38,507 nt of DNA. Origin: Chloroflexota bacterium. Lineage in GTDB: Bacteria; Chloroflexota; Limnocylindria; Limnocylindrales; CSP1-4. The notes under the pieces were generated by a model, which saw only the letters and a list, made by a program, of their open reading frames with translations, was not told where the DNA came from and made no database searches. Below are positions 13,128-35,479 of the stretch, in pieces (the stretch's first letter is position 1; every line of letters begins with the position of its first letter). Location of the stretch: positions 1 through 38,507 of the forward strand of contig PLMA01000065.1 in the NCBI GenBank assembly GCA_003141455.1, given 5' to 3'. The position numbers and the translations under genes are program-made.

Positions 13128-13164
13128 CTCAGCCCCTGCTAAGCGGTGGCTCAGACGCTGCTAA
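13128..13164 (+). promoter_or_regulatory. Phased CTCA/CTAA operator upstream of the VanW gene
   Basis: The tetramers CTCA, CTAA, CTCA and CTAA occur at 13128, 13139, 13150 and 13161, exactly 11 bases apart. The two CTAA units share the longer word CTGCTAAGC. Orientation matches the other sites of this family (CTCA on the coding strand of the downstream gene). The nearest plus-strand gene is the VanW protein. Confidence 0.6.
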
Positions 13165-13258
13165 GCCGCGCGTCGGATCCTCCGGATATGGACAAGTCCC
13201 TGAAACGATTGTGCCCGCTAGACCACGATCGCCCGGCTGATGGACGCACCCGCCGAGG

Positions 13259-15481
13259 ATGGCGGTGTGGACGATGAGTTGGGAAGGGAAACATCCACGA
13301 CGCGGAGCTGAATCAAAGTCGTTGGAATCCGCAAGTGCGACAGCATTCGACTGGAAGGATCAACGGAAGGCCAAATCACAGGCCGGGTTACGCACGTCCT
13401 CGATGCCCCTTCTTTCGAGGCGTTTCGTCATCGGGTTCGTTCTGGGACTCTTGGGGACCACCCTAGTCGTAGGCGCCGTCGCATTCGGCCTCTCGCGGCT
13501 GTACGACGGGAAGATCATGCCGGGTGTTCGTGTCGGGACCGTTGACCTTTCGGGGCTGACTCGTGATGAAGCCATCGGCAGACTCGACTCAGCTTATGCG
13601 TACCTCCGTCAGGGCAAGATCGTCCTGACCACGCCGGGCGGCACGGGAACGATCACCTACCAGGAGGCCGGGCGCGGCCCAGATTCGGCCGCAATGGCGG
13701 ATGCCGCCCTGGCGGAAGGCCGCGCGGACGACCCGCTCACCAGCGTTGCCGCGACGATCCGGACTGTTGTGGTCGGCGCGGACGTCCCGGTCATGGTGAA
13801 GCTGGATCCGAAGGCTCTAGCAGCCAGCCTCCAGCGGGTGACGAGCGCTAGCCTGGTACCCCCAAGGGACGCATCCGTCGTCATCAGCGGGACTGGTCAC
13901 ACGGTTCTCCCGGCTGCCGCCGGACACGGAGTCGACGAGACCGCCATCGCTGCGCGCGTGATCGATCAATTGTCTGCGCCCGGCGCGCCGGCCGAACGCG
14001 AGATTGGCGGCTCGTCCACGACCGTAGAGCCGAGAGTCTCGGACGCGGACGCAGCAGCCGCTGCGAAGGGCGCGGACAACATGGCCGTCGTGGTGACGCT
14101 GACGAACGGGGACAAGACCTGGACGATCGACGCAGCCACGATCCACAGCTGGATCACTTTCGGCGTCCGAGCCGGCGGAACCTACGCCTCGGCGGTAGAT
14201 CCGGCCTCGGTCAAGACCTTTGTCGCGTCGCTGGCGAAGGATGTCGATGCCGATCCGGTCGAGCCCAAGGTCATCTACAAAGACGGCCTGCCCAACGGCC
14301 TATCCGCAAGCACGCCGGGTAAGGCGCTCAACGTCGACGCCACGGCACAGGCGGTCGAGTCGTACCTCGACGGTCTGGGGTCGGGCAACTCGAACCCTGT
14401 TGCGAACCTGGCCGTGGTCGTCGATGACGTCGCAGTCAAACTCGTGGCAAACCCGGGTCTCGCCGGGTTCGTGCGAGTTGGGCAGTGGAGCACGACCTAC
14501 TTTCCCGGCGAATCCAATGGCAACGGCAGGAATATCGAGATCCCGGCCGAGATGCTCAACGGAACGGTGATCGGCCCCGGACAACAGTTCAGCTTCCTCA
14601 ATGCGGTGCCGATTGACGAGGCCCACGGCTTCAGGCCGGGCGGGGTAATCCTCGATGGCAAGAGCAACCACACCGGTGCGATAGGCGGCGGCATTTGCTC
14701 GGCGTCGACAACCTTCTTCAACGCCGCGGCTCGCGCCGGGCTCCAGATCGACGAACGGCACGCACACTTCTACTACGTGAATCGCTACCCGGTCGGCCTC
14801 GATGCCACTGTCTACTCAAATGGCACCCAGACGCTGGACATGCGCTGGACGAATGACACAGACAACCCGATCGTGATACGCAGCTGGTGGACGGGTCGCA
14901 GCACGCGCGTAATCACCGTCGAGCTGTGGAGCTTGCCCATCGGTCGCACGACGACCTTCTCGGGCGGAGTCAAGAGCAACGTCGTCAAGGCCACCGACGG
15001 CACCCAGTACGTGCCGTCCCTTCCGGCCGGCCAGAAGACGTACCGGGCGGAATACCCGACGGACGGATACAACACGGTCGTGACTCGCACGGTCGTGGAC
15101 AAGAGCGGCACAGTCATCCACCTCGACACATGGACCTCTCGATATACCAAGGTGGACGGGTTGCTGCAGATTGCCGGCACGCCTCCGCCTTCGCCCTCGC
15201 CCACTGCCAAGTTGACTCCTACTCCTGGCCAGAGCTCGAGCCCTAGCCCGGGCCCAACTGCGCCGCGGCCCTCGCCGACTCCACCGAGCCCAAGCCCAAG
15301 CCCAAGCCCAAGCCCAGGGCAGCCGGCGCCATCGCCTTCGGCGCTTCCGCCCGCCCCGAACCCCACGCCGATTCCGCCGTCGCCCCGCCGCCGGCGATCC
15401 AAGCGCCGGACTCTCACCCAGTCCTCAGCTTCGGCTCAGATGCCCCTAAGCCGACAGGCACATGCTCGACGCCATGGATGA
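13259..15481 (+). CDS. VanW family protein with Ser-Pro tail
   Basis: The start is uncertain: ATG 13259 gives 740 residues, while ATG 13403 (MPLLSRRFVIGF) starts just before the signal anchor; neither has a good ribosome-binding site. After the membrane helix come YoaR-like peptidoglycan-binding repeats (about residues 90-370), a VanW domain (about 410-540; NGTVIGPGQQFSFLNAV, then GAIGGGICSASTTFFNA), a G5-like/beta region, and a low-complexity Pro/Ser tail (about 640-715) ending in Arg. VanW proteins are cell-wall associated and of unknown mechanism. The last 20 bases overlap the HMA-like gene. Confidence 0.9.
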   Translation: MAVWTMSWEGKHPRRGAESKSLESASATAFDWKDQRKAKSQAGLRTSSMPLLSRRFVIGFVLGLLGTTLVVGAVAFGLSRLYDGKIMPGVRVGTVDLSGLTRDEAIGRLDSAYAYLRQGKIVLTTPGGTGTITYQEAGRGPDSAAMADAALAEGRADDPLTSVAATIRTVVVGADVPVMVKLDPKALAASLQRVTSASLVPPRDASVVISGTGHTVLPAAAGHGVDETAIAARVIDQLSAPGAPAEREIGGSSTTVEPRVSDADAAAAAKGADNMAVVVTLTNGDKTWTIDAATIHSWITFGVRAGGTYASAVDPASVKTFVASLAKDVDADPVEPKVIYKDGLPNGLSASTPGKALNVDATAQAVESYLDGLGSGNSNPVANLAVVVDDVAVKLVANPGLAGFVRVGQWSTTYFPGESNGNGRNIEIPAEMLNGTVIGPGQQFSFLNAVPIDEAHGFRPGGVILDGKSNHTGAIGGGICSASTTFFNAAARAGLQIDERHAHFYYVNRYPVGLDATVYSNGTQTLDMRWTNDTDNPIVIRSWWTGRSTRVITVELWSLPIGRTTTFSGGVKSNVVKATDGTQYVPSLPAGQKTYRAEYPTDGYNTVVTRTVVDKSGTVIHLDTWTSRYTKVDGLLQIAGTPPPSPSPTAKLTPTPGQSSSPSPGPTAPRPSPTPPSPSPSPSPSPGQPAPSPSALPPAPNPTPIPPSPRRRRSKRRTLTQSSASAQMPLSRQAHARRHG

Positions 15482-15701
15482 GCGGACGATCCGAATCAGG
15501 CTTCTGGACCTCGGCTGCGTCGCGGAAGCGATCGGACTCGAGCGACGCCTCGCGCGGACGCTGGGAGTCCTGGGGGCCGCGGTGAACCCGGCGACCGACA
15601 CCGCCTACATCCGCTACGACGGATACCGAACGTCACCCGAGCGCCTGCGGGCCGCGATTACCGCCGCGGGATTCCGCGCCGGCGATCCAATTGCGGGCTA
15701 G
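15462..15701 (+). CDS. HMA-like protein with one cysteine
   Basis: This 79-residue protein fits the beta-alpha-beta-beta-alpha-beta ferredoxin-like HMA fold (TIRIRLLDLGC, a helix ending RTLGVLGAAVN, TAYIRYDG, then LRAAITAAGF). The usual metal site GMxCxxC is reduced to LGCVAEA, with only the first cysteine left. It may bind metal with other ligands, bind differently, or be decaying. The start could be 15462 or the ATG at 15474; both overlap the end of the VanW gene. The stop lies three bases before the next frame. Confidence 0.65.
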   Translation: MLDAMDERTIRIRLLDLGCVAEAIGLERRLARTLGVLGAAVNPATDTAYIRYDGYRTSPERLRAAITAAGFRAGDPIAG

Positions 15702-15704
15702 ACC

Positions 15705-15926
15705 GTGCTGCTTGCCATCCGCAATCTCACACGCGACCGGACGCGCTTCGGGCTGAGCGTCGCCGGCGTCGCTCTCGCGGTGATGCTAATCCTGCTCCTG
15801 TCATTTCTGCTCGCGCGGCTGCAGGGCCGAGTTCCTCGGCGAGCTGCCGGAGACAGGGCAGGCCACGACCTGACCCTCGCCACCAATCAAGTTGAGCAAC
15901 AAGAAGCATCAAGGAGATCCACGTGA
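15705..15926 (+). pseudogene. N-terminal fragment of an FtsX-like ABC permease
   Basis: A GTG start opens MLLAIRNLTRDRTRFGLSVA and one membrane helix, the typical beginning of a DevC/MacB/FtsX-type permease of about 380 residues. Resemblance ends near codon 40 (SFLLARLQGR); the rest of the 73 codons is hydrophilic and unlike a permease. A different frame just after the break reads AEFLGELPETGQATT then a stop, perhaps the tail of another lost gene. I infer a deletion. The frame's TGA overlaps the YHS gene start. Confidence 0.6.
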
Positions 15927-16132
15927 TCCACCATCACGAGATGTCGGAACAGCCAGGCAAGGTTACGGATCCGGTCTGCGGCATGACCGTCGAAGCCGAG
16001 CAAGCCGGAGCTCAGGGCCTTTCGACCGAGTACGAAGGCAAGACCTACTTCTTCTGCGGCCGCGGCTGCAAGCTCGAGTTCTCAGACGATCCGGCCCGCT
16101 TCCTCGACCCCTCGTACCATCCGGCTATGTAG
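15923..16132 (+). CDS. YHS-domain metal-binding protein
   Basis: This 69-residue protein starts at GTG with AAGGAG seven bases upstream. After a His-containing lead (IHHHEM) it carries a YHS domain: DPVCGMTV with C19, then YEGKTYFFCGRGCKLEF with two cysteines, and DPARFLDP. YHS domains often accompany copper ATPases and bind copper or other soft metals. Standing between copper genes, it probably serves as a cytosolic metal-binding or chaperone protein. Confidence 0.88.
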   Translation: MIHHHEMSEQPGKVTDPVCGMTVEAEQAGAQGLSTEYEGKTYFFCGRGCKLEFSDDPARFLDPSYHPAM

Positions 16133-16319
16133 CGCCTGCGGCGGCCTCCATCGCCAAGGTCGCCACTACGGCTTGGCAGGCGGCGATAGTGGCGGTCGGC
16201 TAGCGGGAAGGGGCGTCGGTCGTTCCGGTGTCACCGCGCACGACTTCGATGTCGACGTCGACCGGCGGAACTCTGCGCAGCCTCGACGAGGTTCGGAGCT
16301 GGGGCGGGGCCCAGCTTAT

Positions 16320-16336
16320 CTTGACCAAGTCTTGAC
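16320..16336 (+). promoter_or_regulatory. Candidate operator, TTGAC direct repeat
   Basis: Two TGAC tetramers at 16322 and 16333 are 11 bases apart in the sequence CTTGACCAAGTCTTGA. The same sequence with two changes in these 16 bases lies upstream of the first SHOCT/cupredoxin operon (8065-8080). It is about 90 bases before the SHOCT start, as in the other copy. Similar distance and sequence suggest a shared regulator. Confidence 0.55.
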
Positions 16337-17800: not shown

Positions 17801-18189
17801 CAGACGCCCGATCGAGGAGACGTGCCTTCGGCCGAATCGGTGTCCGACGCAGTGGGGGCAGCGGAGTGCGAGCCGTGCTCTCCGCCGTGGCTCATGCCGT
17901 GGCCCATGAAGAGGTGCATGCTCAAGCATCCGCCGAGGAAAATGAGCGGCGTGAGTGTTGCGAGAGGCACGCCGACTGCGAGAAGAGCGCCCAAACCGAT
18001 GACGGCGCTGCCAATGATCTTCGCCGTGCGCGGCAGGGCAAGGACCGCGCCGAAAGCCTTGGTTCCGGTGCTTGCATCGGTGCGCCCGTCGGCGTAGTGG
18101 GCGTGTGCCTCCATTGTGTCGCTCGGGGCCGAGCCGTGTCCGTGGCAGGAGGGGGTGGCAACGACTGGTTCGCTTGTCTGGACGGTCAT
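17800..18189 (-). CDS. His/Met-rich small membrane protein (DUF2933-like)
   Basis: This 129-residue protein has a His-rich soluble lead (CHGHGSAP, EAHAHYADG), a membrane hairpin at about 55-90, and a metal-ligand-rich tail (GGCLSMHLFMGHGMSHGGEH). The tail pattern, a membrane helix running into Met/His/Gly, is seen in small DUF2933-like proteins of copper loci. A similar protein lies at 27402-27713. ATG 18189 has AAGGAGA upstream and overlaps the Lgt-like stop by four bases. Confidence 0.8.
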   Translation of the reverse strand: MTVQTSEPVVATPSCHGHGSAPSDTMEAHAHYADGRTDASTGTKAFGAVLALPRTAKIIGSAVIGLGALLAVGVPLATLTPLIFLGGCLSMHLFMGHGMSHGGEHGSHSAAPTASDTDSAEGTSPRSGV

Positions 18190-19004
18190 GGCAGTGCTAT
18201 CTCCTTGGTGGGGAATGCGGATGCGGCAAGGCGCTGTCGGACGAAGTTTGCAAGGATTGCCGCGCCTCCAAGCGCGAGCCCGAGGCCGATGACCTGGGCG
18301 GTCTTGAGGCCGAAGAAGACGGCCTGTTCGTCGCGTAGGAAGAAGAGGGCGAAACGGATGCCGGCGACCCCTACCAGGTAGGTGCCGGCCAGAGCGCCTG
18401 CGCCAAGGCCGGCGAGTCGTTGGCGGCCAAGCCAGAGCGCGGCGAACAGAAGGCCAAGAGCGATCGCTTCGTATGCCTGGGTCGGCTGAAGGGGAACGCC
18501 AAGAGGCGCCATCGCGGCAGAGTTCCGGTAGACGACGGCCCAGGGCAGCGTCGTCGGCAGACCGAACGAGTCGCCGGTGATCAGGCAGCCGACGTGGCCG
18601 ATGGCCTGACCGATGGCAGCCGCAGGCGCCGCAGCGTCGAGCACGGGCCAGAGCGGCACCCCGCGTAGCCTGGCGAATACGGCGATCGTGACGATCGCGG
18701 CGATGAGGCCGCCGTAGAAGCTGAGCCCGCCCTCCCAGACCATGAAGACGTGCAGCGGGTCTGCCCCGAGCATCGGCAGGTCGTCCTGGAGCTCGTAGAG
18801 AAGACGCCCGCCGACGATCGCGGCGATAGCCACCCACCAGATGCCGTCCGAGACCGCGCGCCCATCGAGTTTCTTGCGGCGTGCTTCGTAGGTGAACACC
18901 AGGATCGCGACCGCCGCCGCTGCCAGCAGCGTCAGGCTGTACCACCGGATTGCGAGACCGCCGAACGAGGCGATGACGGGGTTGACGTCGATTGTGAAAG
19001 GCAT
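18186..19004 (-). CDS. lgt-like: Prolipoprotein diacylglyceryl transferase-like protein, divergent
   Basis: This 272-residue polytopic protein follows the Lgt plan: early IRWYSL, GGRLLYELQ, WEGGLSFYGGLI, and later QPTQAYEA. Lgt transfers diacylglycerol to the cysteine of prolipoproteins. The signature that usually reads GRxGNFxNGE is GHVGCLITGDSFG here, so the conserved Arg and Asn are replaced, and the His in the GGLSFxGG motif of E. coli is Tyr. It may be a paralog with changed function. ATG has AGGAG six bases upstream. It sits in an operon with copper-binding proteins. Confidence 0.85.
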   Translation of the reverse strand: MPFTIDVNPVIASFGGLAIRWYSLTLLAAAAVAILVFTYEARRKKLDGRAVSDGIWWVAIAAIVGGRLLYELQDDLPMLGADPLHVFMVWEGGLSFYGGLIAAIVTIAVFARLRGVPLWPVLDAAAPAAAIGQAIGHVGCLITGDSFGLPTTLPWAVVYRNSAAMAPLGVPLQPTQAYEAIALGLLFAALWLGRQRLAGLGAGALAGTYLVGVAGIRFALFFLRDEQAVFFGLKTAQVIGLGLALGGAAILANFVRQRLAASAFPTKEIALP

Positions 19005-19015
19005 TGGGCTCCTGA

Positions 19016-19609
19016 TCAGCGCTGGTGGAATGGATGGGGCCTGGCCGGTCGCCGGGCGGCCAGCAGGACAGCCGTCGCACCCGCGATGAGGGCGCCGAAG
19101 CCGGCGGCCACCTCGACAGACACAATCCCGATGCCTGCGAGCACGGTCGCCGCCGCCACGCTGGTAGCCAGCGAGCCAGCGACCCAGCGGCGCGGATGCG
19201 CCGTCGTTCGACGCTCAACAAGGGCGATTTCGCCGCGATAGCGGCCCATGCCGCAGGTGAACCGGACGGTGCCTCGGGGCTGGCCGGGAAGGTCGACGAC
19301 GGTCGTCCCGTTCGGGGCCAGCCGGCGTTCGATGTGCGGCGAGGAGAAGACGACCCGCTCCGTGCAGTGGTCGGCATCGAGCCGGTGGAAGACGAGCCGT
19401 AGCGGGGCATCAGCGATCGCCGTGGACTGCGCGGGCTGATATCCACGATCGACCCAGATGTCTACCACCTGCGGCTCGGCTTCGGTTTGCTCGCCGACGC
19501 CAGCCGCCGCGGCCGTGCGCACGTTGCGGCGGGCAGTTGATGGCAGTCCATCGATGTATCCGAATGAACCCCGCGAAGTGTCGTCGACAAGCGTCGTAGT
19601 CGTGCCCAT
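19016..19609 (-). CDS. Cupredoxin-domain membrane protein
   Basis: This 197-residue protein begins with a soluble region. A cupredoxin_1-type domain (about residues 45-125) follows: VDIWVDRGYQP, LRLVFHRLDADHCTERVVF, then VRFTCGMGRYRGEI. The CTERVVF and TCGM words are typical of cupredoxins found next to or fused to copper ATPases. Two membrane helices follow (about 140-185) and a basic tail. It has no signal peptide, so the domain may face the cytoplasm. The start could instead be 19642. It is the first gene of a five-gene operon. Confidence 0.82.
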   Translation of the reverse strand: MGTTTTLVDDTSRGSFGYIDGLPSTARRNVRTAAAAGVGEQTEAEPQVVDIWVDRGYQPAQSTAIADAPLRLVFHRLDADHCTERVVFSSPHIERRLAPNGTTVVDLPGQPRGTVRFTCGMGRYRGEIALVERRTTAHPRRWVAGSLATSVAAATVLAGIGIVSVEVAAGFGALIAGATAVLLAARRPARPHPFHQR

Positions 19610-19632
19610 GTCAGCAGTACAACGGCTCCGGC

Positions 19633-19669
19633 TGAGACCCATGTGAGAGCTACCTAACGAACCGCTGAG
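19633..19669 (-). promoter_or_regulatory. Phased operator upstream of the 19609-17247 operon
   Basis: TGAG occurs on the plus strand at 19633, 19644 and 19666; the intermediate position 19655 reads TAAC. All are in 11-bp phase. In coding orientation this is CTCA-N7-(degenerate)-N7-CTCA-N7-CTCA, 24 bases before the ATG at 19609. An ATG at 19642 would lie inside it, which favours 19609. Confidence 0.65.
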
Positions 19670-19683: not shown

Positions 19684-22098
19684 TCAGCCCGCAGCCGCTG
19701 GAGACGCGGCCGGGAGGTGCTCGGCCACGCGAGCGCCCCGAGGCGGGCGGAACCCTCGCAGGCGGAGCGCGTTCGAGACGACGGTCACGCTCGAGAGAGC
19801 CATCGCCGCCGCGGCGAAGATCGGGTCGAGGAGGATCCCGGCAAACGGGTAGAAGGCGCCGGCGGCCAGCGGGATGAGAGCGACGTTGTAGGCAAAAGCC
19901 CAAAACAGGTTCTGCTTGATGTTCCGCATCGTCGCCCGGGACAGGGCAAAAGCGGTCACAAGCCCTAGCAAATCGCCGCTCATGAGTGTCACGCCGGCAG
20001 ACTCGATGGCGATGTCCGTCCCGGTTCCGATCGCCACTCCGACGTCGGCTGAGGCGAGGGCGGGCGCATCGTTGACGCCGTCGCCAACCATCGCGACTTT
20101 CTTGCCCTCGGCCTGGAGCCGTCGAATCTGGGCCGCCTTTTCGTCGGGCCGGACGTCGGCGAGTACGCGGTCGACTCCCGCCTGGCGAGCGATTGCTGCG
20201 GCGGTCGTTGCGTTGTCGCCGGTCAGCATTACGACCTCGAGCCCGAGCCGGTGGAACTCAGAGACAGCGGCCGACGAGCTCGGCTTGAGCGTGTCGGCAA
20301 TGGCCAGCACGGCTGCCAGCTTGCCGTCGATCGCAACATAGACGGGAGTCTTTCCGGCCGAAGCCAGTTGGCCAGCGGCGGCGGCCAACGGCGAGGGGTC
20401 GATGCCCATCGTTTCGAGGTAGCCGGCCCGGCCGACGAAGACATTTCGTCCCGCGACCGTGGCCGCGATGCCCTGGCCGCCAACGGTTGAGAAGTCGACC
20501 GCGTCCGGAAGAACGAGCGCCTGCTCGTCTGACGCGTAGCGCACGATCGCCTCACCGAGCGGGTGCTCGGAGCCGCGCTCTGCCGCCGCCGCCAGGGTGA
20601 CGACATCGATCTCGCTGGGCGCATCGGGGACACGCACGATATCGGTGACGCGCGGCCGGCCCTCGGTCAGGGTGCCGGTCTTGTCGAGGACTACGACCCT
20701 CACCTGGTGCAGGCGCTCGAGCGCTTCGGCGTTACGGAACAGGATGCCGTGCTCGGCGCCCTTGCCCGTGCCGACCATGATCGAGGTGGGGGTCGCCAGC
20801 CCCAGCGCGCAGGGGCAGGCGATGATCAAGACCGCGACCATGTTCAGAAGGGCCAGGTTGAAGGCCGGCTGCGGTCCGGCGAGGAGCCAGACGATGAAGG
20901 TGAGCCCTGCCGCGCCCAGGACCGCAGGGACGAAGTAGCCCGTCACTGCGTCGGCGAGCCGCTGGATGGGCGCCTTGCTGCCTTGCGCGTCCTGGACGAG
21001 CCTGACTATCTGGGCGAGCACGGTGTCGCGCCCCACTCGACGCGCCTCGAAGGTGAACGACCCTGAGCCGTTCATCGTGCCGCCGATGACCTCGTCGCCG
21101 GCACCCTTGATGGCCGGCATGCTCTCGCCGGTGACCATGCTCTCGTCGACGTTTGAGGAGCCGTTGGCTACGACTCCGTCCACGGGCACCTTCTCGCCGG
21201 GGCGGACCCGAACTACGTCCCCGACGACAACCGCGTCCACCGCGACGTCGAGCTCGACGCCGTCCCGCACGACCCGAGCCGACCGCGGCGCGAGGCCGAT
21301 CAGCTTCTTGATCGCATCGGAGGTGTGGCTTCGCGCGCGGGCTTCGAGGAACCGGCCGAGCAGGATCAGCGTGATGATCGCCGACGACGTGTCGAAGTAG
21401 AGCGGAAGTTCGCCGTTCCGGGCCACACCGGCGGCCTCAAAGAAACCTGGGAAGAGGATCGCGGCGACGCTGTATGCGAACGCGGCGGAGGTTCCGACGG
21501 CAATGAGGGTGTTCATGTCGGTGGCGCGATGGCGGGCGACTTTGAAGGCTCCGGTGTAGAAGCCGCGCCCCGCGTAGAACTGAACCGGCGTTGCGAACGC
21601 GAGCTCCAGCCATGGGTTGGATAACCAGCGCGGCAGGAACGGCGCGATCGTCATGGACGCGAGGGCGACGATGAGCGGGGCCGTGAAGAGCGCCGCGACG
21701 ATGAGATGCCGGCGAGTCTCGGCGAGGTGGCGCTCGGCGTAGGTCGCCTCTTCTCGCGACTCCGCGGGTGAGTCTGCAGCCGCATATCCCGTCGCTGCGA
21801 GGCCCGTCGGAGGCTCGTGTTCAACGCCGGCCGCCAAGTCGTTGGCGATCCCTCCGCCCTGCTCCGCCTTGTCGAGACGCGGCTCGTAACCCGCGGCCTC
21901 GACCGCCTGGCCGAGGCCGGCTGGAGTGATGCGAGCCGAGTCGTACCGGACGCTCGCGGTCTCGGTCGCGAGGTTGACCGTGGCCTCGATGACTCCATCG
22001 GCCTTGCGCAGGTATCGCTCGATGCGGTTCACGCACGAGGCGCAGGTCATGCCTTCGACGGGGAAACGGATTGTGGCGGCGGTGATGGTTTCGTTCAT
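19684..22098 (-). CDS. copA: Copper-exporting P-type ATPase, CopA type
   Basis: The 804-residue P1B-1 ATPase exports Cu(I). It has one N-terminal HMA domain with C19-x2-C22 (GMTCASC), the membrane motif C428-P-C430, a TGES actuator loop, D472 in [18 protein letters not shown] and [13 protein letters not shown]. All eight membrane segments appear present. I chose ATG 22098; an upstream ATG at 22158 lies inside the phased operator, so it is probably not used. No ribosome-binding site is strong. It is transcribed alone, divergent from the cupredoxin/CcdA-like operon. Confidence 0.95.
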
Positions 22099-22157
22099 CG
22101 AGGGTCTCGGCTTTCGGGTTGCGGCGCGGTTCGTCACCGGATCGTGCGCCTCGAACA

Positions 22158-22183
22158 TGAGACCTGGCTGAGGGCCGACTGAG
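22158..22183 (-). promoter_or_regulatory. Phased operator upstream of copA
   Basis: TGAG occurs at 22158, 22169 and 22180 on the plus strand, exactly 11 bases apart (CTCA-N7-CTCA-N7-CTCA in the copA direction). It ends 60 bases before the chosen copA ATG. Confidence 0.7.
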
Positions 22184-22245
22184 CGCCAGGTCAGAAAGCG
22201 GACTGCGCGGCCCCGGACGGCCCCCGCCCTGTCCAGGAACCGGCT

Positions 22246-22260
22246 CTCATATCGCTCTCA
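22246..22260 (+). promoter_or_regulatory. Phased operator upstream of the cupredoxin/CcdA-like/HMA operon
   Basis: CTCA occurs at 22246 and 22257, 11 bases apart, each extended to CTCTCA. It lies 78 bases before the ATG at 22338 and points the opposite way to the copA operator, matching the divergent gene. Only two units are visible. Confidence 0.5.
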
Positions 22261-22337
22261 GGTACCGGTGACACCATGCGCACGCGTCCAAAAGCAAGCC
22301 GGTGCTCTGCGCGCCGATCACACCAGGGAGAACTCAC

Positions 22338-22856
22338 ATGACTACCCGCGCCGCCAGACGCGCGCAGGAACGAGCACTAGCCACAGGCGAAATACCGGCG
22401 GCCAAGCCTCGGCGAGCAGCCAAGCCGGCTGCCGGAACGAAACCCAGCAAGCTCCGGGTCGCTGCGTTCCTCGCAATTGCGGCCATCGTCATCGGTGGCG
22501 GCGTCTACCTCGCCGGCAGTGTGTTCATGGGGCAGCGCGACAAGACGACCGTGGCCGGCGCGATTGCCGTGGGCATCAGCATGGACGGTTTCAACCCGAG
22601 CACACTCGACGCCAAGCCAGGTCAGACGCTCACCCTCGACTGGTGGAATCAGGACGCCGCGATGCACCTGACCAACGGCGTTCACACGCTGGTTTCGGAC
22701 AAGCTCAACGTGCGCCTGGAGCTCCCGGCCCAGAGCCGCAAGACCGTGACGCTGACGGCGCCGATGACGCCGGGCGACTACGACTTCTGGTGCGACAGCT
22801 GCTGCGGTGGGAAGGACAACCCCAAGATGCACGGCACGCTCCACGTCGAGGCGTAG
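22338..22856 (+). CDS. Membrane-anchored cupredoxin with CxxCCGGK loop
   Basis: The 172-residue protein has a basic cytoplasmic lead (1-35), one membrane helix (about 38-60), and an external cupredoxin domain (about 75-172; MDGFNPSTLDAKPGQTLTL). The C-terminal metal loop is C152-D-S-C155-C156-G-G-K-D-N-P-K-M164-H. C152 and C156 have the C-x3-C spacing of CuA sites, but the CuA His position is not conserved; H110 and H116 could also serve. I infer a soft-metal or redox-active site. ATG has AGGGAG upstream. It is followed three bases later by a CcdA-like gene. Confidence 0.85.
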   Translation: MTTRAARRAQERALATGEIPAAKPRRAAKPAAGTKPSKLRVAAFLAIAAIVIGGGVYLAGSVFMGQRDKTTVAGAIAVGISMDGFNPSTLDAKPGQTLTLDWWNQDAAMHLTNGVHTLVSDKLNVRLELPAQSRKTVTLTAPMTPGDYDFWCDSCCGGKDNPKMHGTLHVEA

Positions 22857-22859
22857 TCG

Positions 22860-23732
22860 ATGTCAGGCTCTACTTCTGGCAATCCCTGGGTGACGATCGG
22901 CGAGTCGGCGGGAATCCCGAAGGCTGCGCTCCTGCTCTTCGGCGGGCTCGGTGCGATTGCGATCTCGGCCTCGCTTGTCGTGCTGCTCGGGCCGGGCTTC
23001 TCCTCGCCGAGGTTCGGGACGCTGACGGCTCCGGTCGTCATCAGCTCGGGCTTCGCGGATGGCTTCAACCCGTGCGCCTACGCCCTGCTGGTGCTGTTCG
23101 CGACCTACACGCTCACTCTCGTGAACGCGGTCACGTCGGACGGGCGGCCGACACCGTTCGCTCGGCGCACCCTGTTGGGCGCCGGCTCGCTCTACGTCGG
23201 GGCCGTATTCGTCACCTACTTCCTGCTCGGCTTGGGCCTGTTCACCTTGTTCGAGGGCTTCGGGCGCGACCACATCGTGGCCCGCGTCGCGGCAGTGCTC
23301 GCGCTGGGAATGGCGGTCTGGATGCTCAAGGACGTGTTCTTGCCGGGCTGGGGCCCGACGATGGCGGCTCCATCCGGCACGCATGGCTGGATGAACAAGG
23401 CGATGCAGCGCGGCGGACTCGCCGGAATGCTGATGGCCGGGATCCTCGTTGGCATCTGCACGGTCCCGTGCTCGGGTGCCATGTATTTCTCGGTGACGGC
23501 CGTGCTTCATGCATCCGGCGGCGGGATCGTCGGTCTCGCGCTCCTGGCGCTCTACAACGTCGCGTTCATACTTCCTCTGCTGCTGTTCCTGCTCTTCGTG
23601 TCGAACCGACGCGTGCTCGGCACGATCGGGCGCTGGAACAAGAAGAACGGCACAGTCGTGAAGGCGGTGCTGGCGCTCGGCGTCATGGCCATGAGCTTTG
23701 GGCTCCTCCTCTCGCTCGGCGGTGCCATGTGA
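22860..23732 (+). CDS. CcdA/DsbD-like membrane protein
   Basis: This 290-residue polytopic protein of the CcdA/DsbD transmembrane family normally passes reducing equivalents across the membrane to thiol proteins. Key cysteines are C72 in DGFNPCAYALLVLF and C204 in ICTVPCSGAMY, with C200 just before. These are the paired membrane cysteines expected of the family. The partner is the upstream CxxCC cupredoxin. A paralog with cysteines at 63, 200 and 204 lies at 32428-33288. Its TGA overlaps the HMA GTG by four bases. Confidence 0.88.
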   Translation: MSGSTSGNPWVTIGESAGIPKAALLLFGGLGAIAISASLVVLLGPGFSSPRFGTLTAPVVISSGFADGFNPCAYALLVLFATYTLTLVNAVTSDGRPTPFARRTLLGAGSLYVGAVFVTYFLLGLGLFTLFEGFGRDHIVARVAAVLALGMAVWMLKDVFLPGWGPTMAAPSGTHGWMNKAMQRGGLAGMLMAGILVGICTVPCSGAMYFSVTAVLHASGGGIVGLALLALYNVAFILPLLLFLLFVSNRRVLGTIGRWNKKNGTVVKAVLALGVMAMSFGLLLSLGGAM

Positions 23733-24037
23733 GTGCCGAATTTGTGCGCCTCCCGATCGAAGGGATGACATGCACGTCGTGCGTCTCCCACATCACCAAA
23801 GCCGTTCGAAAGGTCGATGGCGTGGAGTCGGTCAAGGTGGATCTCGGATCGGAGTCGGCGGTCGTCGGATTTGATGCCACGGTAACGTCCGTGACCGTGA
23901 TCGCGGCCGCGATCAATTTGGCCGGCTACGAGCCGCACCCCGAGCAAGCGGCGCCTTTCGTTCCGGGGCCTTCCCGAGGACTCCTGGCACGACTCGGACT
24001 TCGTCATGGCGGCGACGAGCCAGCCATTGACCGCTGA
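23729..24037 (+). CDS. HMA-domain copper-binding protein
   Basis: The 102-residue protein begins at a GTG overlapping the previous stop (GTGA). The HMA domain (residues 1-70) has C15-x2-C18 in EGMTCTSC and ends AGYEPHPE. A Pro-rich, basic tail of about 30 residues (FVPGPSRGLLARLGLRH) follows. It resembles CopZ-type copper chaperones; delivering Cu(I) to CopA, encoded divergently 1.6 kb away, is a reasonable inference. It is the last gene of the operon, before two strong hairpins. Confidence 0.9.
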   Translation: MSAEFVRLPIEGMTCTSCVSHITKAVRKVDGVESVKVDLGSESAVVGFDATVTSVTVIAAAINLAGYEPHPEQAAPFVPGPSRGLLARLGLRHGGDEPAIDR

Positions 24038-24103
24038 CTTCTGGGTTGATTCTTATCTCGCGCTCACGCCCTTCTAAGCCAGGGGCAACCATGATCGTTC
24101 CAA

Positions 24104-24147: not shown

Positions 24148-24177
24148 CGAGAGCCGGCCCAAGCGGGCCGGCTCTCG
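24148..24177 (+). terminator. Hairpin terminator, second of two
   Basis: A perfect 13-bp stem (CGAGAGCCGGCCC, 24148-24160, and 24165-24177) with loop AAGC is followed by CCATTTCCTC. Together with the hairpin just upstream it insulates the operon from the lipoprotein gene. Confidence 0.8.
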
Positions 24178-24184
24178 CCATTTC

Positions 24185-24210
24185 CTCACCTTGCCTTAAG
24201 CCTGGACTCA
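24185..24210 (+). promoter_or_regulatory. Weak phased CTCA site upstream of the lipoprotein gene
   Basis: CTCA at 24185 and 24207 are 22 bases apart; the middle unit at 24196 is degenerate (TTAA). Orientation and the 24-base distance to the ATG match the better sites. On its own it would not be convincing. Confidence 0.35.
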
Positions 24211-24233
24211 TGTTCTGCGGCCATCATCGCGGC

Positions 24234-25218: not shown

Positions 25219-26628
25219 TCAACGACCCGCGGCAGGAAGCTCAATTGAGACGATCGTGCCACCTGACGGGCGCGGTGAGACTGTGATCGAGCCCGCATGC
25301 GCCTCGACAATCCATCTGGCAATAGCCAACCCGAGCCCGGTGCCGGCAGGACGAAGCGAGCGCGCTGCCGACCCGCGGTAGAGACGCTCGAAAACGTGAG
25401 GGCGGTCTTCCTCTCGGATACCGATGCCCGTGTCCGAGATCTCGACCTGGGCGTTCAGACCCTCACGGAAAAGGCTGGCGGTCACGATGCCACCGGCGGG
25501 CGTATAGCGCCCTGCGTTGTCGAGCACGATCAGAAGCAGCTCTTTCAGCCGGTCGCGGTCGCCCTGGACGACGACGGGTTCGATCGAGTCGACCTCCATG
25601 CGGACATGCGCCGCGGCCGGACCGGCCTGGCGAACGGCTTCGAGCAGCACCGCGTCCAACTCCACAGGAGCCACCTCAAGCCGGGCACCGGATTCCGCCC
25701 GAGCAAGCGAGAGAAGGTCGCCGACCAGGCGCGCCATCCGTTCGGTCTCGGACCGGGCGTCGGCGAGCAGGGCCTCCCGCTCGCCGACGGGCAAGTCTGG
25801 TCGGGCGGCCAGGTCCAGGCTCGCCCGGAGCGTCGTGAGCGGCGTGCGCAGCTCGTGGGACGCATCCCCGAGGAAGCGCTGCAGGGCTTGGTGGTTCTCC
25901 TCGAGGGCGGCGAGCATTTCGTTGAACGCGACCGCCAGCTCCGATACTTCATCGCCGCCCGTGCCAACCGCCTCGACCCGCGCGCCGAAGTCGCCCGACA
26001 GTGATATCGCCCTAGCTGTGTCGGTCACGTCGGCGACCGGCGCAAGGGCCCGGCGAGCGAGTAGCCAGCCCGCGCCAAAGGCGAGCGCGGTGAGAAGCAG
26101 TGCGCCGATGACGAGAACCAGCGCGACCGTTCGGAGCAGGTTATCCAGGTCATGGGTGGAGGCCGCCCAGACGACGTAACCAGCGACCGCCTGGCCCGGG
26201 CCGAAGATCGGCTCGACGACGAGTCGGTAGCTCTCACCGCCCGCGAGCGCCGCATGGACATCTTGCGGATGAGCGCCCGGGGCTATATCACTCGGAGGGA
26301 TGGGCAACAGTTGCGTTCCGGCCGGAGCCGAGTCCAGTACGAGCTTGCCCGCCGGATCGAGAATCTCGACTCGGCCGCCAGTCGCGGCAAACTGATCGAG
26401 CAGTCGCGCGGTCGGATGGAGCTGCCCGTCCGCACCGATGTCCTGAGCGAAGGCGCCGGCGGCGTGGTGGGCGTTTGCCATGAGGCTGCTGTCGAACGAG
26501 GTCTGGAGCTGTTCGCTGAGCACCAGGAAGACTCCGGCACCGAAGACGGTCAGCGCAGCGACCAGAAGCCCCGTGTAGATAAGGGCCAGGCGCGTCCGGA
26601 TCGGCAGTCGCCGGACGGAGAGGTTCAC
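25219..26628 (-). CDS. Sensor histidine kinase
   Basis: This 469-residue kinase has a first helix at about 12-32, a 130-residue external sensor domain ([32 protein letters not shown]), a second helix at about 168-190, HAMP (about 190-245), HisKA with H258 in ASHELRTPL, and HATPase boxes ([24 protein letters not shown]). No metal-ligand cluster stands out in the sensor apart from a His pair near residues 48-49. It overlaps the regulator gene by four bases. It resembles CusS/QseC-type kinases. Confidence 0.94.
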
Positions 26629-27305
26629 TCCTTGAGCACGTAGCCGGACCCGCGGACCGTGTGGATCAGGCGCGGTTCGCCAGTGGCTTCGAGTTTGTTG
26701 CGCAGATACCTGACGTAAACCTCGAGGACGTTTGACTCGCCGCCGAAGTCGTAAGACCAGACCCGATCCATGATCACGTCGCGGGTCATAACCTTGCGCG
26801 GATGGCGCATCAGGAGTAGCAGCAGGTTGAACTCGGTCGTTGTGAGCGAGATCGAGCGGCCGGCACGGCTCGCCTCCTGGGCGTCGACATCGAGCTGCAG
26901 GTCACCGAACCGGAGAATCTCTCCCGCCGGGTTGGGGCGCCGCCGGAGGAGCGCCCGAACGCGGGCGAGGAGTTCCTCGAAGCTGAACGGCTTGACGAGA
27001 TAGTCGTCGGCGCCGGTCTCGAGCCCCTCGACGCGATCCTTGACCTCGTCGCGTGCCGTGAGCATCAGGATCGCGACATCGTCGCCGGCGTCACGGAGGC
27101 GACGGCAAACTTCGAGGCCGTCGATGCCCGGTAGCATCACGTCGAGCACCACGAGGTCCGGCGTCTGGTCGCGAGCCTTGTCCAGCCCTTCCTCGCCTGA
27201 TCCAGCGTCCGTCACCCGGAAGCCTTCATACACGAGGCCGCGCCGGACGACCGATCGGATCTTCGGGTCGTCGTCGATAACGAGGATGCGTGCCGTGTCG
27301 CTCAT
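26625..27305 (-). CDS. OmpR-family response regulator, candidate regulator of the phased operators
   Basis: This 226-residue regulator (start [11 protein letters not shown] at 27317 is an alternative) has a receiver with VIDDDPK, phosphoacceptor D55 (VLDVMLPG), LMLTARDE and LVKPFSF, then a winged-helix domain with [11 protein letters not shown] and [11 protein letters not shown] three-unit CTCA operator ends 25 bases before its start, which suggests autoregulation. The same repeat precedes the neighbouring operons, so this protein probably controls most of the block from 13 to 35 kb. Confidence 0.95.
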
Positions 27306-27329
27306 TGCGCCAATCATGGCATCAGAACC

Positions 27330-27355
27330 TGAGAGTTACATGAGAGCGGGCTGAG
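27330..27355 (-). promoter_or_regulatory. Phased operator upstream of the response regulator
   Basis: TGAG occurs at 27330, 27341 and 27352 on the plus strand, exactly 11 bases apart (CTCA-N7-CTCA-N7-CTCA in the gene direction). Two units extend to CTCTCA. It sits directly beside the terminator of the upstream operon. Confidence 0.7.
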
Positions 27356-27771: not shown

Positions 27772-28368
27772 CTAAGAACGGGCCGGCGAGACCGCTGCAG
27801 GTCGTGGAGCAGTTGCCGTCCGCGTGGAGCGGAGCCGGCGCAGGAAGACGAAGGCTGTGCCGGAGATGATGATCTGGATAATCGGCATCAGGCTGTCCAG
27901 ATCGACGCCTTCGCCGTTCGGATCGGCGGCGATCAACCAGGGGTGACTCGCGCCGCCTGCGATGTGGAAGTTGATGTTCATGAAGATCGCTATCACGCCG
28001 CCGAGGACGATGAGACCGAGGACTACCTGTCGCCCTGTGAAGCCCAGCTGCGACCAGTGGGCCACCCAGAGCAGGGCGGCTCCGATCAGGACTAAGCCGA
28101 GCGCGAGCTCGCCGACCATGACGAGGTACCCGAAGAGCTGTCCGTTGGGGATGACGACGCTGTCGACAAACGATTTGTATGGGCCAGTCAAATCCTTGGT
28201 CTGATCGGACAGAGTGTTCGCAAGACCACTCGCGAAGTCGCCGGCCAGCACCTTCGCGAGCCCCGACATAAACCACTCGTAGCCCAGGAAGATCTGGACC
28301 GCGAGCAAGCCCACCAGCAGGGGGCGGGCGCTGCCCTCGAATTGCAGATCTGGCTTGTCCTCATGCAT
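27772..28368 (-). CDS. DoxX/DoxD-like membrane protein
   Basis: This 198-residue protein has four membrane helices. The N-terminal ARPLLVGLLAVQIFLGYEWFMSG followed by LAKVLAG matches the DoxX/DoxD family (small subunit-like proteins of thiosulfate:quinone oxidoreductase and related membrane oxidoreductases). The middle NINFHIAGGASHPW region is also typical. The exact redox role is not known. ATG has AGGAG ten bases upstream. It leads the operon under a four-unit operator. Confidence 0.85.
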   Translation of the reverse strand: MHEDKPDLQFEGSARPLLVGLLAVQIFLGYEWFMSGLAKVLAGDFASGLANTLSDQTKDLTGPYKSFVDSVVIPNGQLFGYLVMVGELALGLVLIGAALLWVAHWSQLGFTGRQVVLGLIVLGGVIAIFMNINFHIAGGASHPWLIAADPNGEGVDLDSLMPIIQIIISGTAFVFLRRLRSTRTATAPRPAAVSPARS

Positions 28369-28436
28369 CGGACGTGGCTCCTGACTATCGGGTGGCCAAC
28401 GAGGCCACCGTCTTGGTCAACTCTCGTCCGCCGCAC

Positions 28437-28473
28437 TGAGGCTCATGTGAGCGCAAGCTGAGGACCGGATGAG
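28437..28473 (-). promoter_or_regulatory. Phased operator, four units, upstream of the DoxX-like operon
   Basis: TGAG occurs at 28437, 28448, 28459 and 28470, exactly 11 bases apart on the plus strand. It is one of the two cleanest copies in the window. It lies 69 bases before the ATG at 28368. Confidence 0.8.
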
Positions 28474-28492: not shown

Positions 28493-29146
28493 TCACGCCG
28501 GCTGATGCGACCGACGCCAACTGATGTTGGGGATGAAGCGGGGCGTGGTGGCCGTGTAGAGCTCGTATTCGGGACCAAACTGAGCCCGCACCTCACGTTC
28601 CTCGCTAATCGCGAGTCGCGTGTATGCGAATGCCAGGACTGGGAACATCGCGAGCGTCAGCAGGGTCGGCCACTGGAGGAGGAACCCGGCCATGATCAGG
28701 AGGAAGCCCACGTACTGGGGGTGCCGCACTGAGCCGTAGGGTCCGCCCGTCGCCAGGCGGTGCTCTCGCTGGGCCCTCCAGAGCACCGGCCACGCCTTGC
28801 CAAGGACCAGGAAGCCGGCGCCCATCACGAGGTAGCTGGCGAGGTGGAATGGGCTCAGGTGCGGGTCGCCCTGCCAGCCAATGAGGTCGTTCAGGAGATG
28901 GCCGCCGGCATGGGTCGGAGCCAGTGCTGGAAACGCAGATCCGAGCCAGCCCGAGAGCACATAGATCGTGAGAGGGAACCCGTACATCTCGGTGAAGAGG
29001 GCGACGATGAACGCCGAGTAGGCGCCCATGACCCTCCAGTCGCGCTTGGTGCGTGGATGGAAGAACGTGGCCGCGAACCCGATGAAGACGATCGAGTTGA
29101 TTGCCACGAGAATCCAGAGCCCGCCCCCGAAATCGTCACTGCCCAT
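28493..29146 (-). CDS. Isoprenylcysteine carboxyl methyltransferase-like membrane protein
   Basis: This 217-residue polytopic protein has the C-terminal ICMT/phospholipid-methyltransferase signature: GPYGSVRHPQYVGFLLIMAG, followed by a helix and AISEEREVRAQFGPEY. Bacterial members methylate unknown small molecules or lipids with S-adenosylmethionine and are common in metal-resistance loci. The N-terminal half has about four further helices. ATG has GGAGA about six bases upstream. It is preceded by its own operator at 29221. Confidence 0.88.
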   Translation of the reverse strand: MGSDDFGGGLWILVAINSIVFIGFAATFFHPRTKRDWRVMGAYSAFIVALFTEMYGFPLTIYVLSGWLGSAFPALAPTHAGGHLLNDLIGWQGDPHLSPFHLASYLVMGAGFLVLGKAWPVLWRAQREHRLATGGPYGSVRHPQYVGFLLIMAGFLLQWPTLLTLAMFPVLAFAYTRLAISEEREVRAQFGPEYELYTATTPRFIPNISWRRSHQPA

Positions 29147-29220
29147 GGTTCTCCGTCTGCGCCATGTCGGCGCTCAACTTCGACGATTGGTGTCGCTAAC
29201 TCGATCCTCGGTCCCTAGCC

Positions 29221-29246
29221 TGAGAGAGCGATGAGCCGAGCCTGAG
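29221..29246 (-). promoter_or_regulatory. Phased operator upstream of the ICMT-like gene
   Basis: TGAG occurs at 29221, 29232 and 29243, exactly 11 bases apart. Orientation matches the minus-strand gene starting at 29146, 75 bases away, and not the plus-strand CDF gene on the other side. Confidence 0.7.
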
Positions 29247-29335
29247 TCTGTGACTAGAAACGTCCCCCGTGGGCAGGACGACCTAACCCCCGTGCGGCAT
29301 GATGGTGTTCCCAAGGCGATCGCAACGAGACACGG

Positions 29336-32427: not shown

Positions 32428-33288
32428 TCAGACCATGACCAGGATCGCGAAGCCCATCGCCAGGACGACGATCGCGAGCACCAACTTGGTTCCGCCGGCG
32501 TGCTGGAGGTGCCACCGATTGATGACCCTGATGAGGCCCGGCCGGCTTGCTAGAACAAGCAGGACCAGCAAGGGGGTGACATAGGCAAGGTTGTACAAGA
32601 TCAGCCCGCCCAGCCCCGCGCCCACCGTGCCGTTGGTCGAAAGGAGAGCGACGACACCGAGGTAGACGGCGCCGCTGCACGGCACTGTGCAGAGCCCGAT
32701 GAGCACGCCGCCGCCAAAGAGCGCGAGGCGCGAAGTGGAGCGCGCCCAGTCGCGCATTCGGCCGTGCAGAGCGTGAGGCGCCTCGAGCTTCCACGACACG
32801 TCTGGCAGAAGCACGTCGCGAAGCATCCAGAGTCCGAGTCCGATCGCGATGAGCGCGGCAATTCGGCTCGGAAGGTGGTTGCCGCCGAAGTGGGTGAATG
32901 TGGCGACCACGGTCAGCAACCCAAGACCCAGCAGGAAGTACGTGACCAGCACGCCGGCGACGAAGAAGGCTCCCAGACCGAGAACGGTTCGGCTGGCCGC
33001 CTTGATGCTCGACCCGCCATCAGAACCTCCGAGGCCCAGCGACTGACGGGACGCCAATCCGAGCGCGAACGTGGCGAACAGAATGAGCACCCCGAAGGCG
33101 CAGGGATTGAAGCCGTCGAGGATGCCCGCGCCGATGATGGCCGGGACGCTCAGTGTGGTCAGAGTCCCGTGGTCGGCAGCATGGGGTGCGGTGATGAGAA
33201 TGGCGGCAGCCGACGCGGCCACGACCAAGCCCGTGATAAGCAAGAACAGCCTGGTACGAGGTAGGAACGAGCGCGTCACGGCCTGCAT
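32428..33288 (-). CDS. CcdA/DsbD-like membrane protein (second copy)
   Basis: This 286-residue paralog of 22860-23732 shares DGFNPCAFGVLILFATFAL (C63) and GLCTVPCSGAVYLGV (C200, C204), plus the LVTYFLLGLGLL segment. It presumably moves electrons, or less likely metal, across the membrane to the partner cupredoxin. Its ATG overlaps the cupredoxin stop by one base (TGATG), so the two proteins are made together. No HMA gene follows, unlike the first copy. Confidence 0.88.
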   Translation of the reverse strand: MQAVTRSFLPRTRLFLLITGLVVAASAAAILITAPHAADHGTLTTLSVPAIIGAGILDGFNPCAFGVLILFATFALGLASRQSLGLGGSDGGSSIKAASRTVLGLGAFFVAGVLVTYFLLGLGLLTVVATFTHFGGNHLPSRIAALIAIGLGLWMLRDVLLPDVSWKLEAPHALHGRMRDWARSTSRLALFGGGVLIGLCTVPCSGAVYLGVVALLSTNGTVGAGLGGLILYNLAYVTPLLVLLVLASRPGLIRVINRWHLQHAGGTKLVLAIVVLAMGFAILVMV

Positions 33289-33779
33289 CAGGCTGTAACC
33301 GTCAGCTTCCCTTGCATCGACGGGTTCTCTTTGCCGCCGCAGCAGATGTTGCAGTAGAACTCATACGTGCCGGGCGTAGAGGGCGCCGTGAAGCTGAACA
33401 CCTGGCTGCTCTCGGGTCCAACCTTCCAATCGATCTTGAGCTCATCGATCGCGAACTCATGCCAGCCACCCCCGTCACTGTGCATCGACGTGTCCATGCT
33501 CGCGAGCTGGATCTTGACCTCTTCACCCGCCTTCACAGTCAACTGGTTGGGGTCGAAGCCGTCCATGCTGGCGTGAACCTGGAGGGCGCCCGCCTCCGGC
33601 GTGCCCGGTGGCTGCAGCCGGCCAATGACGAGACTGACCGCAACGACCCCTAGAACGATCGCGATCGTGGCAAACACGCCGATCCGGAGCCAGCGTGGCA
33701 GTCCGGCCCCGGGGGCCATCGACTGGCGCGCAGCCGATGAACGACCGGCTCGGTACTTTGAGGTGGATCGGCGCGTCAT
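33288..33779 (-). CDS. Membrane-anchored cupredoxin with CxxCCGGK loop (second copy)
   Basis: This 163-residue paralog of 22338-22856 has a basic lead, one membrane helix (about 32-54), and a cupredoxin domain (ASMDGFDPNQLTVKAGEEV). The metal loop is C143-N-I-C146-C147-G-G-K-E-N-P-S-M155. The GGWHEF segment gives a possible His ligand absent from the first copy. The loop pattern CxxCCGGKxNPxM is shared by both. ATG has GAGG six bases upstream. A four-unit operator precedes it. Confidence 0.86.
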   Translation of the reverse strand: MTRRSTSKYRAGRSSAARQSMAPGAGLPRWLRIGVFATIAIVLGVVAVSLVIGRLQPPGTPEAGALQVHASMDGFDPNQLTVKAGEEVKIQLASMDTSMHSDGGGWHEFAIDELKIDWKVGPESSQVFSFTAPSTPGTYEFYCNICCGGKENPSMQGKLTVTA

Positions 33780-33886
33780 GTGGGCCTCGAATGCGGTCTG
33801 GCGACATCTTCGGCAGGCGGCCGTTGGGTCCCGCTATTGGGACGCCCCTGACCCCCGGAGCCAACCCAGAGGCTGCCCGCGGCGGC

Positions 33887-33923
33887 TGAGATGGCAGTGA
33901 GCGGCACCTGAGAGTGTGCTGAG
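33887..33923 (-). promoter_or_regulatory. Phased operator, four units, upstream of the second cupredoxin/CcdA-like operon
   Basis: TGAG occurs at 33887, 33898, 33909 and 33920, exactly 11 bases apart on the plus strand. It starts 108 bases upstream of the ATG at 33779. With the site at 28437 it is the clearest example. Confidence 0.8.
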
Positions 33924-33952
33924 AAGATGCCCGAGTCGAGCCCCGCGCCCAC

Positions 33953-35128: not shown

Positions 35129-35130
35129 GG

Positions 35131-35394
35131 TCAATCCTTTCCGTATCGAAGGCCGCCGATGAGGCGAGACCGGCCGAATCCGAGGCGGGCATAGAGCGGG
35201 CAGTAGCCGCCGGCGCCGGTCGCGACGAGGCCGAGACCCAGAAGCGCGAACCCGACCCAGGCCAGGACCGCTGGCCCGCTGGAACCGCGAAGCAGGAAGA
35301 CCGCGACCATCGTGAGCCCCGGACCGCCGACGACTCGCACGGTTCGTTCGACGGCAGCGAGGCCGCCGCGACGCGTGAGCGTGAAACGTGACAT
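35131..35394 (-). CDS. DUF2892 (YgaP-like) membrane protein
   Basis: This 87-residue protein (start MSRFTLTRRG; an open frame extends to 35427) has two membrane helices at about 22-40 and 47-66, then the family motif GGYCPLYARLGF. DUF2892 proteins are small inner-membrane proteins often next to rhodanese or metal genes; their role is unknown. AGAGG lies eight bases before the ATG. It is first in an operon with the Lgt-like gene. Confidence 0.82.
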   Translation of the reverse strand: MSRFTLTRRGGLAAVERTVRVVGGPGLTMVAVFLLRGSSGPAVLAWVGFALLGLGLVATGAGGYCPLYARLGFGRSRLIGGLRYGKD

Positions 35395-35442
35395 CGGCGG
35401 TACCTCTCGTGACTTTTGTCCTCGCATTCTTCGGCGCGGACA

Positions 35443-35479
35443 TGAGACCTATCCGAGAGCCAGATAAGCGAGCGCTGAG
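35443..35479 (-). promoter_or_regulatory. Phased operator, partly degenerate, upstream of DUF2892/Lgt-like operon
   Basis: Units at 35443 (TGAG), 35454 (CGAG), 35465 (TAAG) and 35476 (TGAG) keep the 11-bp phase. The TAAG variant also appears at 13128-13164 as CTAA on the other strand. It lies 49 bases from the ATG at 35394. Confidence 0.55.

Follow-up and report, generated by a model that had tools for sequence, protein, structure and literature searches.

Why does the tetramer CTCA (TGAG on the other strand) recur in exact 11-bp phase upstream of gene after gene in one contig from an uncultured Chloroflexota family, and which protein reads it? The window analysed here is the whole stretch of 38,507 nucleotides (nt) of contig PLMA01000065.1 (assembly GCA_003141455.1; GTDB lineage Limnocylindrales; CSP1-4), which corresponds to C62, one of the 68 contigs of a 3.07-Mb genome. 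A preliminary description had read the repeats as marks of a metal regulon at nine or more promoters, controlled by a response regulator at 26625-27305, here called RR2. Our analysis points to an accessory copper regulon switched on by class II activation of the PhoP/PhoB type, in which the arrays would be operators read by RR2, and we place the probability of this reading at about 0.8. The arrays, their phase, their fixed distance to a -10 hexamer, the pile-up of start codons and the co-occurrence with RR2 come directly from computation.

Phased arrays in the window and the genome

When CTCA spacings of 5-39 bp were scanned in the window, 11 bp gave 17 pairs and eight triples, and no other spacing in that range gave a triple. 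Pair counts elsewhere were 0-5, except for 11 pairs at 22 bp, a harmonic of 11. In 200 first-order Markov sequences, the mean was 1.25 pairs at 11 bp (maximum 5), with no triples. Across the whole genome there are eight exact triples in 11-bp phase, every one in C62, and none of the same pattern read backwards. Likewise, a whole-genome search for four units with at most two mismatches found eight places, all in C62, and no backwards match. Two units followed by the -10 pattern described below gave five matches elsewhere in the genome (reversed control, one), and the three of these examined, namely those outside C50 and C51, all lie within predicted genes.

A weight matrix derived from the window units, with arrays called above a score of 16, found 100 arrays in the window and 24 stretches from relatives, compared with four expected from simulated sequence. 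Twelve are in the window: the nine already described, where each position quoted does hold the unit assigned to it, plus three beginning at 15413, 24041 and 24174. The number of units per array varies. An exact fourth CTCA is present in 6 of the 12 window arrays and some units are degenerate, for instance two CTAA at the VanW array, CGAG at 35454, TAAG at 35465 and GTTA at 19655 in the gap of the membrane cupredoxin array. The fourth unit is weak in relatives, whose loci were fetched for holding exact triples, so that a rule of exactly three half-sites is only a candidate. At each of the 12 window arrays CTCA reads in the same direction as the gene that the array serves (TGAG on the plus strand for minus-strand genes), as had been noted. 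Among 186 arrays anchored on the -10 hexamer in relatives, 128 are followed within 150 nt by a start on their own strand. In 42, a start on the opposite strand lies within 150 nt in the other direction, and some of these are divergent promoters with their own arrays. The strand rule in relatives is thus strong but not absolute.

Chance, composition or local duplication might also yield phased repeats, and some triples elsewhere are in-gene repeats (G009 C84 and a cluster in G021 C96). Against this stand the absence of triples from the simulated windows and of reversed triples from the genome, the fixed -10, the spacers that differ from promoter to promoter and the recurrence of arrays before homologous genes. 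In 107 genomes of the family, the triple with a -10 occurs 135 times in total, compared with one for the reversed pattern. Chance and composition are rejected by the simulated windows, the reversed-pattern counts and this 107-genome control, and we assign the explanation as a whole a negligible probability.

A fixed -10 element and predicted transcription starts

Alignment of 88 arrays showed that columns after the G following the last CTCA are near background, except for A at +12 and T at +16. These bases define a hexamer, nAnnnT, beginning 11 nt past the last repeat. The same hexamer stands at +11 in 112 of 133 exact triples from island loci, which were found without the matrix and include G022 and G123, where RR2 was not found; the remaining offsets, scanned from -11 to +29 around this position, hold 0-10 cases each. 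In the window, 10 of the 12 arrays have nAnnnT at +11 (other offsets, 0-4), and the two that fail are the membrane cupredoxin array (TGTACT) and the degenerate array at 24041. Anchoring on the hexamer yielded the 186 arrays mentioned above; seven shifted controls gave 4-14 each, and about ten of the 186 are possibly chance. The putative operator takes the place of a -35 element at a fixed distance from the -10, as in class II activation.

These features would also suit repressor operators, at which bound RR2 would block RNA polymerase where the promoter's -35 is weak. The arrays overlap the -35 position with the -10 within reach, and geometry does not separate activation from repression. However, the -10 distance is exact, as contact with sigma requires, and the 186 anchored arrays hold no further conserved block above 0.4 bits outside the units, their flanking bases and the hexamer. 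Repression consequently appears improbable, and activation remains our preferred reading.

The position of start codons adds to this picture. Gene-finder starts are bimodal: measured from the first base of the hexamer, 22 of 180 fall at 12-14 nt and none at 15-29 nt. When any ATG or GTG in frame with the downstream gene is counted, offset 12 is occupied in 18 of 186 arrays and offset 13 in 11, compared with 0-2 at offsets 10, 11, 14 and 15. In the window, the start codon coincides with the predicted transcription start in four genes: RR2 (27305), the membrane cupredoxin gene (19609), the HMA-like gene (15474) and a lipoprotein-like gene (MRKKHSLLLL, 24234). This pile-up suggests leaderless translation, and several genes look leaderless.

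RR2 as the candidate reader

RR2 (26625..27305, minus strand) combines a receiver domain (Response_reg, 112.8 bits; cut-off 30.2) with a winged-helix domain (Trans_reg_C, 96.8 bits; cut-off 26.2), the composition of an OmpR/PhoB-type regulator. It shares an operon with HK2 (25219..26628, minus strand), a histidine kinase with HAMP, HisKA and HATPase_c domains. Its own promoter (27313..27355, minus strand) carries three units at 27330-27355 and the -10 CATGAT at 27313-27318, so that the regulator does have a site of its own, as had been noted. The relatives that top the list of named records are Chloroflexi metagenome-assembled genomes.

Taking at least 76% identity as the threshold for an RR2 orthologue, 23 of the 107 family genomes are positive and 84 negative; the counts that follow are raw and not corrected for relatedness. 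At least one TCTCA triple was found in all 23 positive genomes and in 15 of the 84 negative ones, and at least two in 19 and three genomes, respectively. With the -10 added, the corresponding figures were 22 of 23 versus 13 of 84 for at least one and 20 of 23 versus 4 of 84 for at least two. Within RR2-positive genomes, 58 of 102 TCTCA triples share a contig with a copy of RR2, the assemblies being fragmented. Of 28 RR2 orthologues, 17 carry an anchored array in the 400 nt on their 5' side, and extending the limit to 1.5 kb raises the count to 20. In G022, which is RR2-negative with at least two matches, the HK2 orthologue is cut at base 6 of its contig, exactly where RR2 would precede.

The recognition helix is also informative. 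The closest solved relatives of RR2 are Mycobacterium tuberculosis PhoP entries (E 6e-64), and 9ji3 is among the PhoP entries listed. PMC4832192 describes PhoP contacts to TCACAGC through N212, V213, E215, S216, Y217 and Y220, with S216 sharing a water with the third half-site base. RR2 retains five of these six residues (N212, V213, E215, Y217 and Y220) and has Val in place of S216. All 28 island RR2 orthologues have this Val, while one has Ile for V213. As the third half-site base is A in the PhoP site and T in these arrays, a tie between the S216 to Val change and the change of base may exist, although this is only suggestive, since 56-66% homologues with that Val lack CTCA triples in 34 loci. 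RR2 was also considered as an orthologue of M. tuberculosis PhoP; with Val at S216 and T for A, it shares neither the full set of contacts nor the TCACAGC site, and is best called PhoP-like.

Together, the 107-genome co-occurrence, the arrays before 17 of 28 RR2 orthologues, the fixed -10 geometry and the PhoP-like helix lend support to the earlier suggestion that RR2 controls the block. Beyond the uncorrected counts, several observations weigh against it. For eight of the 28 RR2 genes, the 1.5 kb on the 5' side lacks an anchored array, and G123, G092 and G096 hold two to three matches to array plus -10 with no RR2 found. In comparison loci, 9 of 15 triples also have the -10, and 13 of the 15 come from genomes without RR2; such -10-bearing triples mean that other regulators may read similar arrays. 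Furthermore, 34 loci (518,740 bases) of 56-66% RR2 homologues with the same helix, from other Chloroflexota and one Peptococcaceae-labelled genome, hold no CTCA triple and no pair with a -10, and pooled upstream regions show no 11-bp peak. No clear metal-binding motif was found in the HK2 sensor stretch of 16 orthologues, and VanW, one of the genes first listed, is doubtful as a target.

A different reader is conceivable: RR1 (11260-11946) or a relative, RR3, with RR2 merely travelling along. Genomes with RR1-type regulators (E 1e-70 or better) hold at least one array in 25 of 39 cases, compared with 13 of 68 without, but in this genome the only RR1/RR3-type match at that threshold is RR1 itself. 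Many island loci have an RR3-like gene some 2 kb away from RR2, and the broad correlation is expected if RR1 relatives share the islands. By contrast, 15 genomes hold RR1 (at least 69%) without RR2, and of these 12 have no TCTCA triple and three have one, which makes RR1 an unlikely reader; the recognition helix of RR1 and RR3 also differs (DDHLVDVHVANLRRKL). We therefore regard this alternative as having a slim chance and retain RR2. In L164, L167, L172, L217 and L227, a second pair (RR3, of RR1 type, and an HK1-like kinase) adjoins RR2-HK2, an arrangement not seen beside RR2 in the window.

Proposed mechanism and comparison with known systems

In the proposed mechanism, HK2 would phosphorylate RR2, which would then bind head to tail on three or four TCTCAGc-N4 half-sites, one protomer per 11 bp. 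The array would substitute for the -35, with the last CTCA ending 11 nt before nAnnnT, and the promoter-proximal protomer would be within reach of sigma region 4 and could recruit RNA polymerase. The outcome would be activation, not repression. As RR2-HK2 is under its own array promoter in this genome, autoactivation is predicted, and several transcripts probably begin at the start codon. The signal may be copper, a different metal or stress on the envelope.

CusRS/CopRS systems, like the proposed regulon, place copper export and copper-binding proteins under two-component control. These systems use a short copper box of inverted type rather than a direct-repeat array, and HK2, unlike them, appears to lack a Met/Cys-rich sensor. 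Judged by array position, the genes that would be under control here include P-type ATPases, cupredoxins, HMA proteins and a multicopper oxidase. Class II activation has been proposed for Escherichia coli PhoB, whose pho box stands in place of the -35 and which contacts sigma-70.

The closest parallel is with M. tuberculosis PhoP, as presented in PMC4832192 and PMC3413638. Both regulators belong to the OmpR/PhoB family, the PhoP sites and the arrays proposed for RR2 both consist of 7-bp half-sites with 4-bp spacers in 11-bp phase (TCACAGC for PhoP, TCTCAGc here), and class II activation has been proposed for the PhoP targets lipF and pks2. According to PMC4832192, three and four half-sites are bound more tightly by PhoP than two. 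In contrast to PhoP, the distance from array to -10 is fixed here at most promoters, the targets are copper-related and in accessory islands, and the kinase and phylum are different. The E. coli pho box, as outlined in PMC4415409, similarly consists of 11-bp direct repeats with seven conserved and four less conserved bases, whereas its half-site, CTGTCAT, and its phosphate starvation regulon differ. Streptomyces coelicolor PhoP (GTTCACC-N4), as covered in PMC4832192 and PMC4415409, shares the repeat spacing and a variable number of units per operator but differs in half-site and regulon.

Promoters and genes of the putative regulon

Several of the promoters precede genes with recognisable links to copper. 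That of copA (22141..22194, minus strand) has four units at 22158-22194 (CTGA, then three CTCA) and the -10 CACGAT. The gene itself (19684..22098, minus strand), a putative copper P-type ATPase, comes from the open reading frame (ORF) list and is named from sequence reading and the preliminary description, not from a profile scan. Its longest ORF starts at 22158 and overlaps the array, so the true start is probably further downstream, for example at 22098 (MNETI..). The first cupredoxin operon (22338..24037, plus strand; Cupredoxin_1 and HMA matches, operon prediction), comprising cupredoxin, CcdA-like and HMA genes, is preceded by a promoter at 22246..22277 (plus strand) with two units at 22246-22260 and CACCAT. 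The second cupredoxin and CcdA/SfLAP-like genes (32428..33779, minus strand; Cupredoxin_1, SfLAP below cut-off) follow a promoter at 33870..33923 (minus strand) with four CTCA and CAGCCT. The membrane cupredoxin and LGT-like genes (18186..19609, minus strand; Cupredoxin_1, LGT) follow one at 19616..19669 (minus strand) with four units, including GTTA, and a hexamer lacking the A.

The remaining promoters serve genes of less obvious function. The DoxX-like gene (27772..28368, minus strand; a weak DoxX match below cut-off) has four CTCA and GAGAGT at 28420..28473 (minus strand). The ICMT-like gene (28493..29146, minus strand; ICMT/PEMT matches) has CTAG, three CTCA and GAGGAT at 29204..29257 (minus strand). 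Upstream of the DUF2892-like gene, 35426..35479 (minus strand) holds four units, two of them degenerate, and AAGAAT, and the VanW 5' array (13128..13181, plus strand) alternates CTCA with CTAA before GATCCT. Where transcription from the VanW array is predicted to begin, an ATG starts a frame of 29 codons (13188-13277), which is out of frame with VanW and possibly a small leaderless ORF.

Three arrays are newly listed. The HMA-like gene promoter (15413..15466, plus strand; array 15413-15449), with three CTCA, a CTAA and CATGCT, lies within the 3' end of the VanW ORF. The lipoprotein-like gene promoter (24174..24227, plus strand; array 24174-24210) has a degenerate four-unit array and CATCAT, and further upstream of the same gene a weak, degenerate array (24041..24077, plus strand) contains one exact CTCA and no -10 at the expected place. 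The positions of these promoters corrected two gene starts in the window, to 15474 and 24234. After the HMA gene, 15705-15926 encodes a short FtsX/MacB-like permease fragment. A full-length permease recurs in relatives' operons (377 amino acids in L166; Pfam MacB_PCD, FtsX), and the window gene thus looks decayed.

Recurrent array-preceded first genes in the islands include RR2 (17 promoters in 14 genomes) and P-type ATPases (19 promoters in 15 genomes), as well as cupredoxins, lipoprotein-like, HMA, MacB/FtsX permease, multicopper oxidase, YHS/TRASH and M23 peptidase genes. In a test for an anchored array directly 5' of each homologue, in which operon-internal genes score as misses, arrays preceded 15 of 25 P-type ATPase, 12 of 14 lipoprotein-like, 4 of 6 ICMT, 3 of 3 HMA and 2 of 5 DoxX homologues. 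Counts were lower for the first cupredoxin (6 of 28), the second cupredoxin (7 of 28) and the membrane cupredoxin (0 of 6), the last because its arrays fail the -10 test, the A being missing. For VanW and the DUF2892-like gene, no homologues were found in the fetched island loci, leaving the latter uncorroborated.

Gene content narrows the metal regulon first suggested to copper handling, which makes copper the likely common theme. The HK2 sensor stretch gives no clear pointer to the signal, having no Cys, 0-2 Met and 2-6 His in the 16 orthologues. HK1 (11943-13040) has RR1 and a second P-type ATPase (9079-11259) as neighbours. With its short, Met-rich loop in the periplasm (HAMGMQSDSAMGAMM), it looks a better candidate for a copper sensor than HK2.

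Distribution and significance

Among 400 genomes of the phylum, the triple with a -10 occurs in 57 and the reversed pattern in two. A hand count of the 57 placed 13 in the 33 sampled family members and 44 in the 367 others, mostly with one match each. Together with isolated arrays in family genomes that lack RR2, these matches suggest other regulators with similar half-sites. For example, in L243, L249, L250, L252 and L253, which come from family genomes without RR2, isolated CTCA triples with a -10 are preceded by a TGAG unit in the opposite orientation (e.g., TGAGAG..TCTCAT), a pattern suggestive of a reader that is related yet distinct.

A broader picture, towards which we are tentative and almost evenly divided, is of a portable copper regulon. 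Its accessory RR2-HK2 islands, found patchily across the genus (3 of 21 genomes) and present twice in some genomes, would share a single stereotyped promoter in which three to four PhoP-like half-sites keep a set distance to the -10, with many leaderless messages and, perhaps, a tandem trimer rather than a dimer as the activating unit. A literature search limited to a PubMed Central (PMC) library, by title or abstract start, found no report of such a regulon in Chloroflexi. This type of switch has precedents. Within the limits of that search, what is new is the regulon itself, together with how regular it is and its accessory distribution.

The regulon, promoter architecture and likely transcription starts of an uncultured Chloroflexota family can thus be read from sequence alone. 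More than 100 natural promoters in register provide a test bed for how PhoP-type regulators read half-site number, sequence and -10 distance, and the compact pattern may help to find copper-handling genes of unknown function, such as the DoxX-, ICMT-, LGT- and lipoprotein-like genes. Finally, the ORF at 6484-7985, named from sequence reading, resembles the N-terminal part of a ParB-type nuclease/methylase that passes directly into a segment like a tyrosine recombinase (7428-7985), and it looks like a mobile-element remnant at an island edge.

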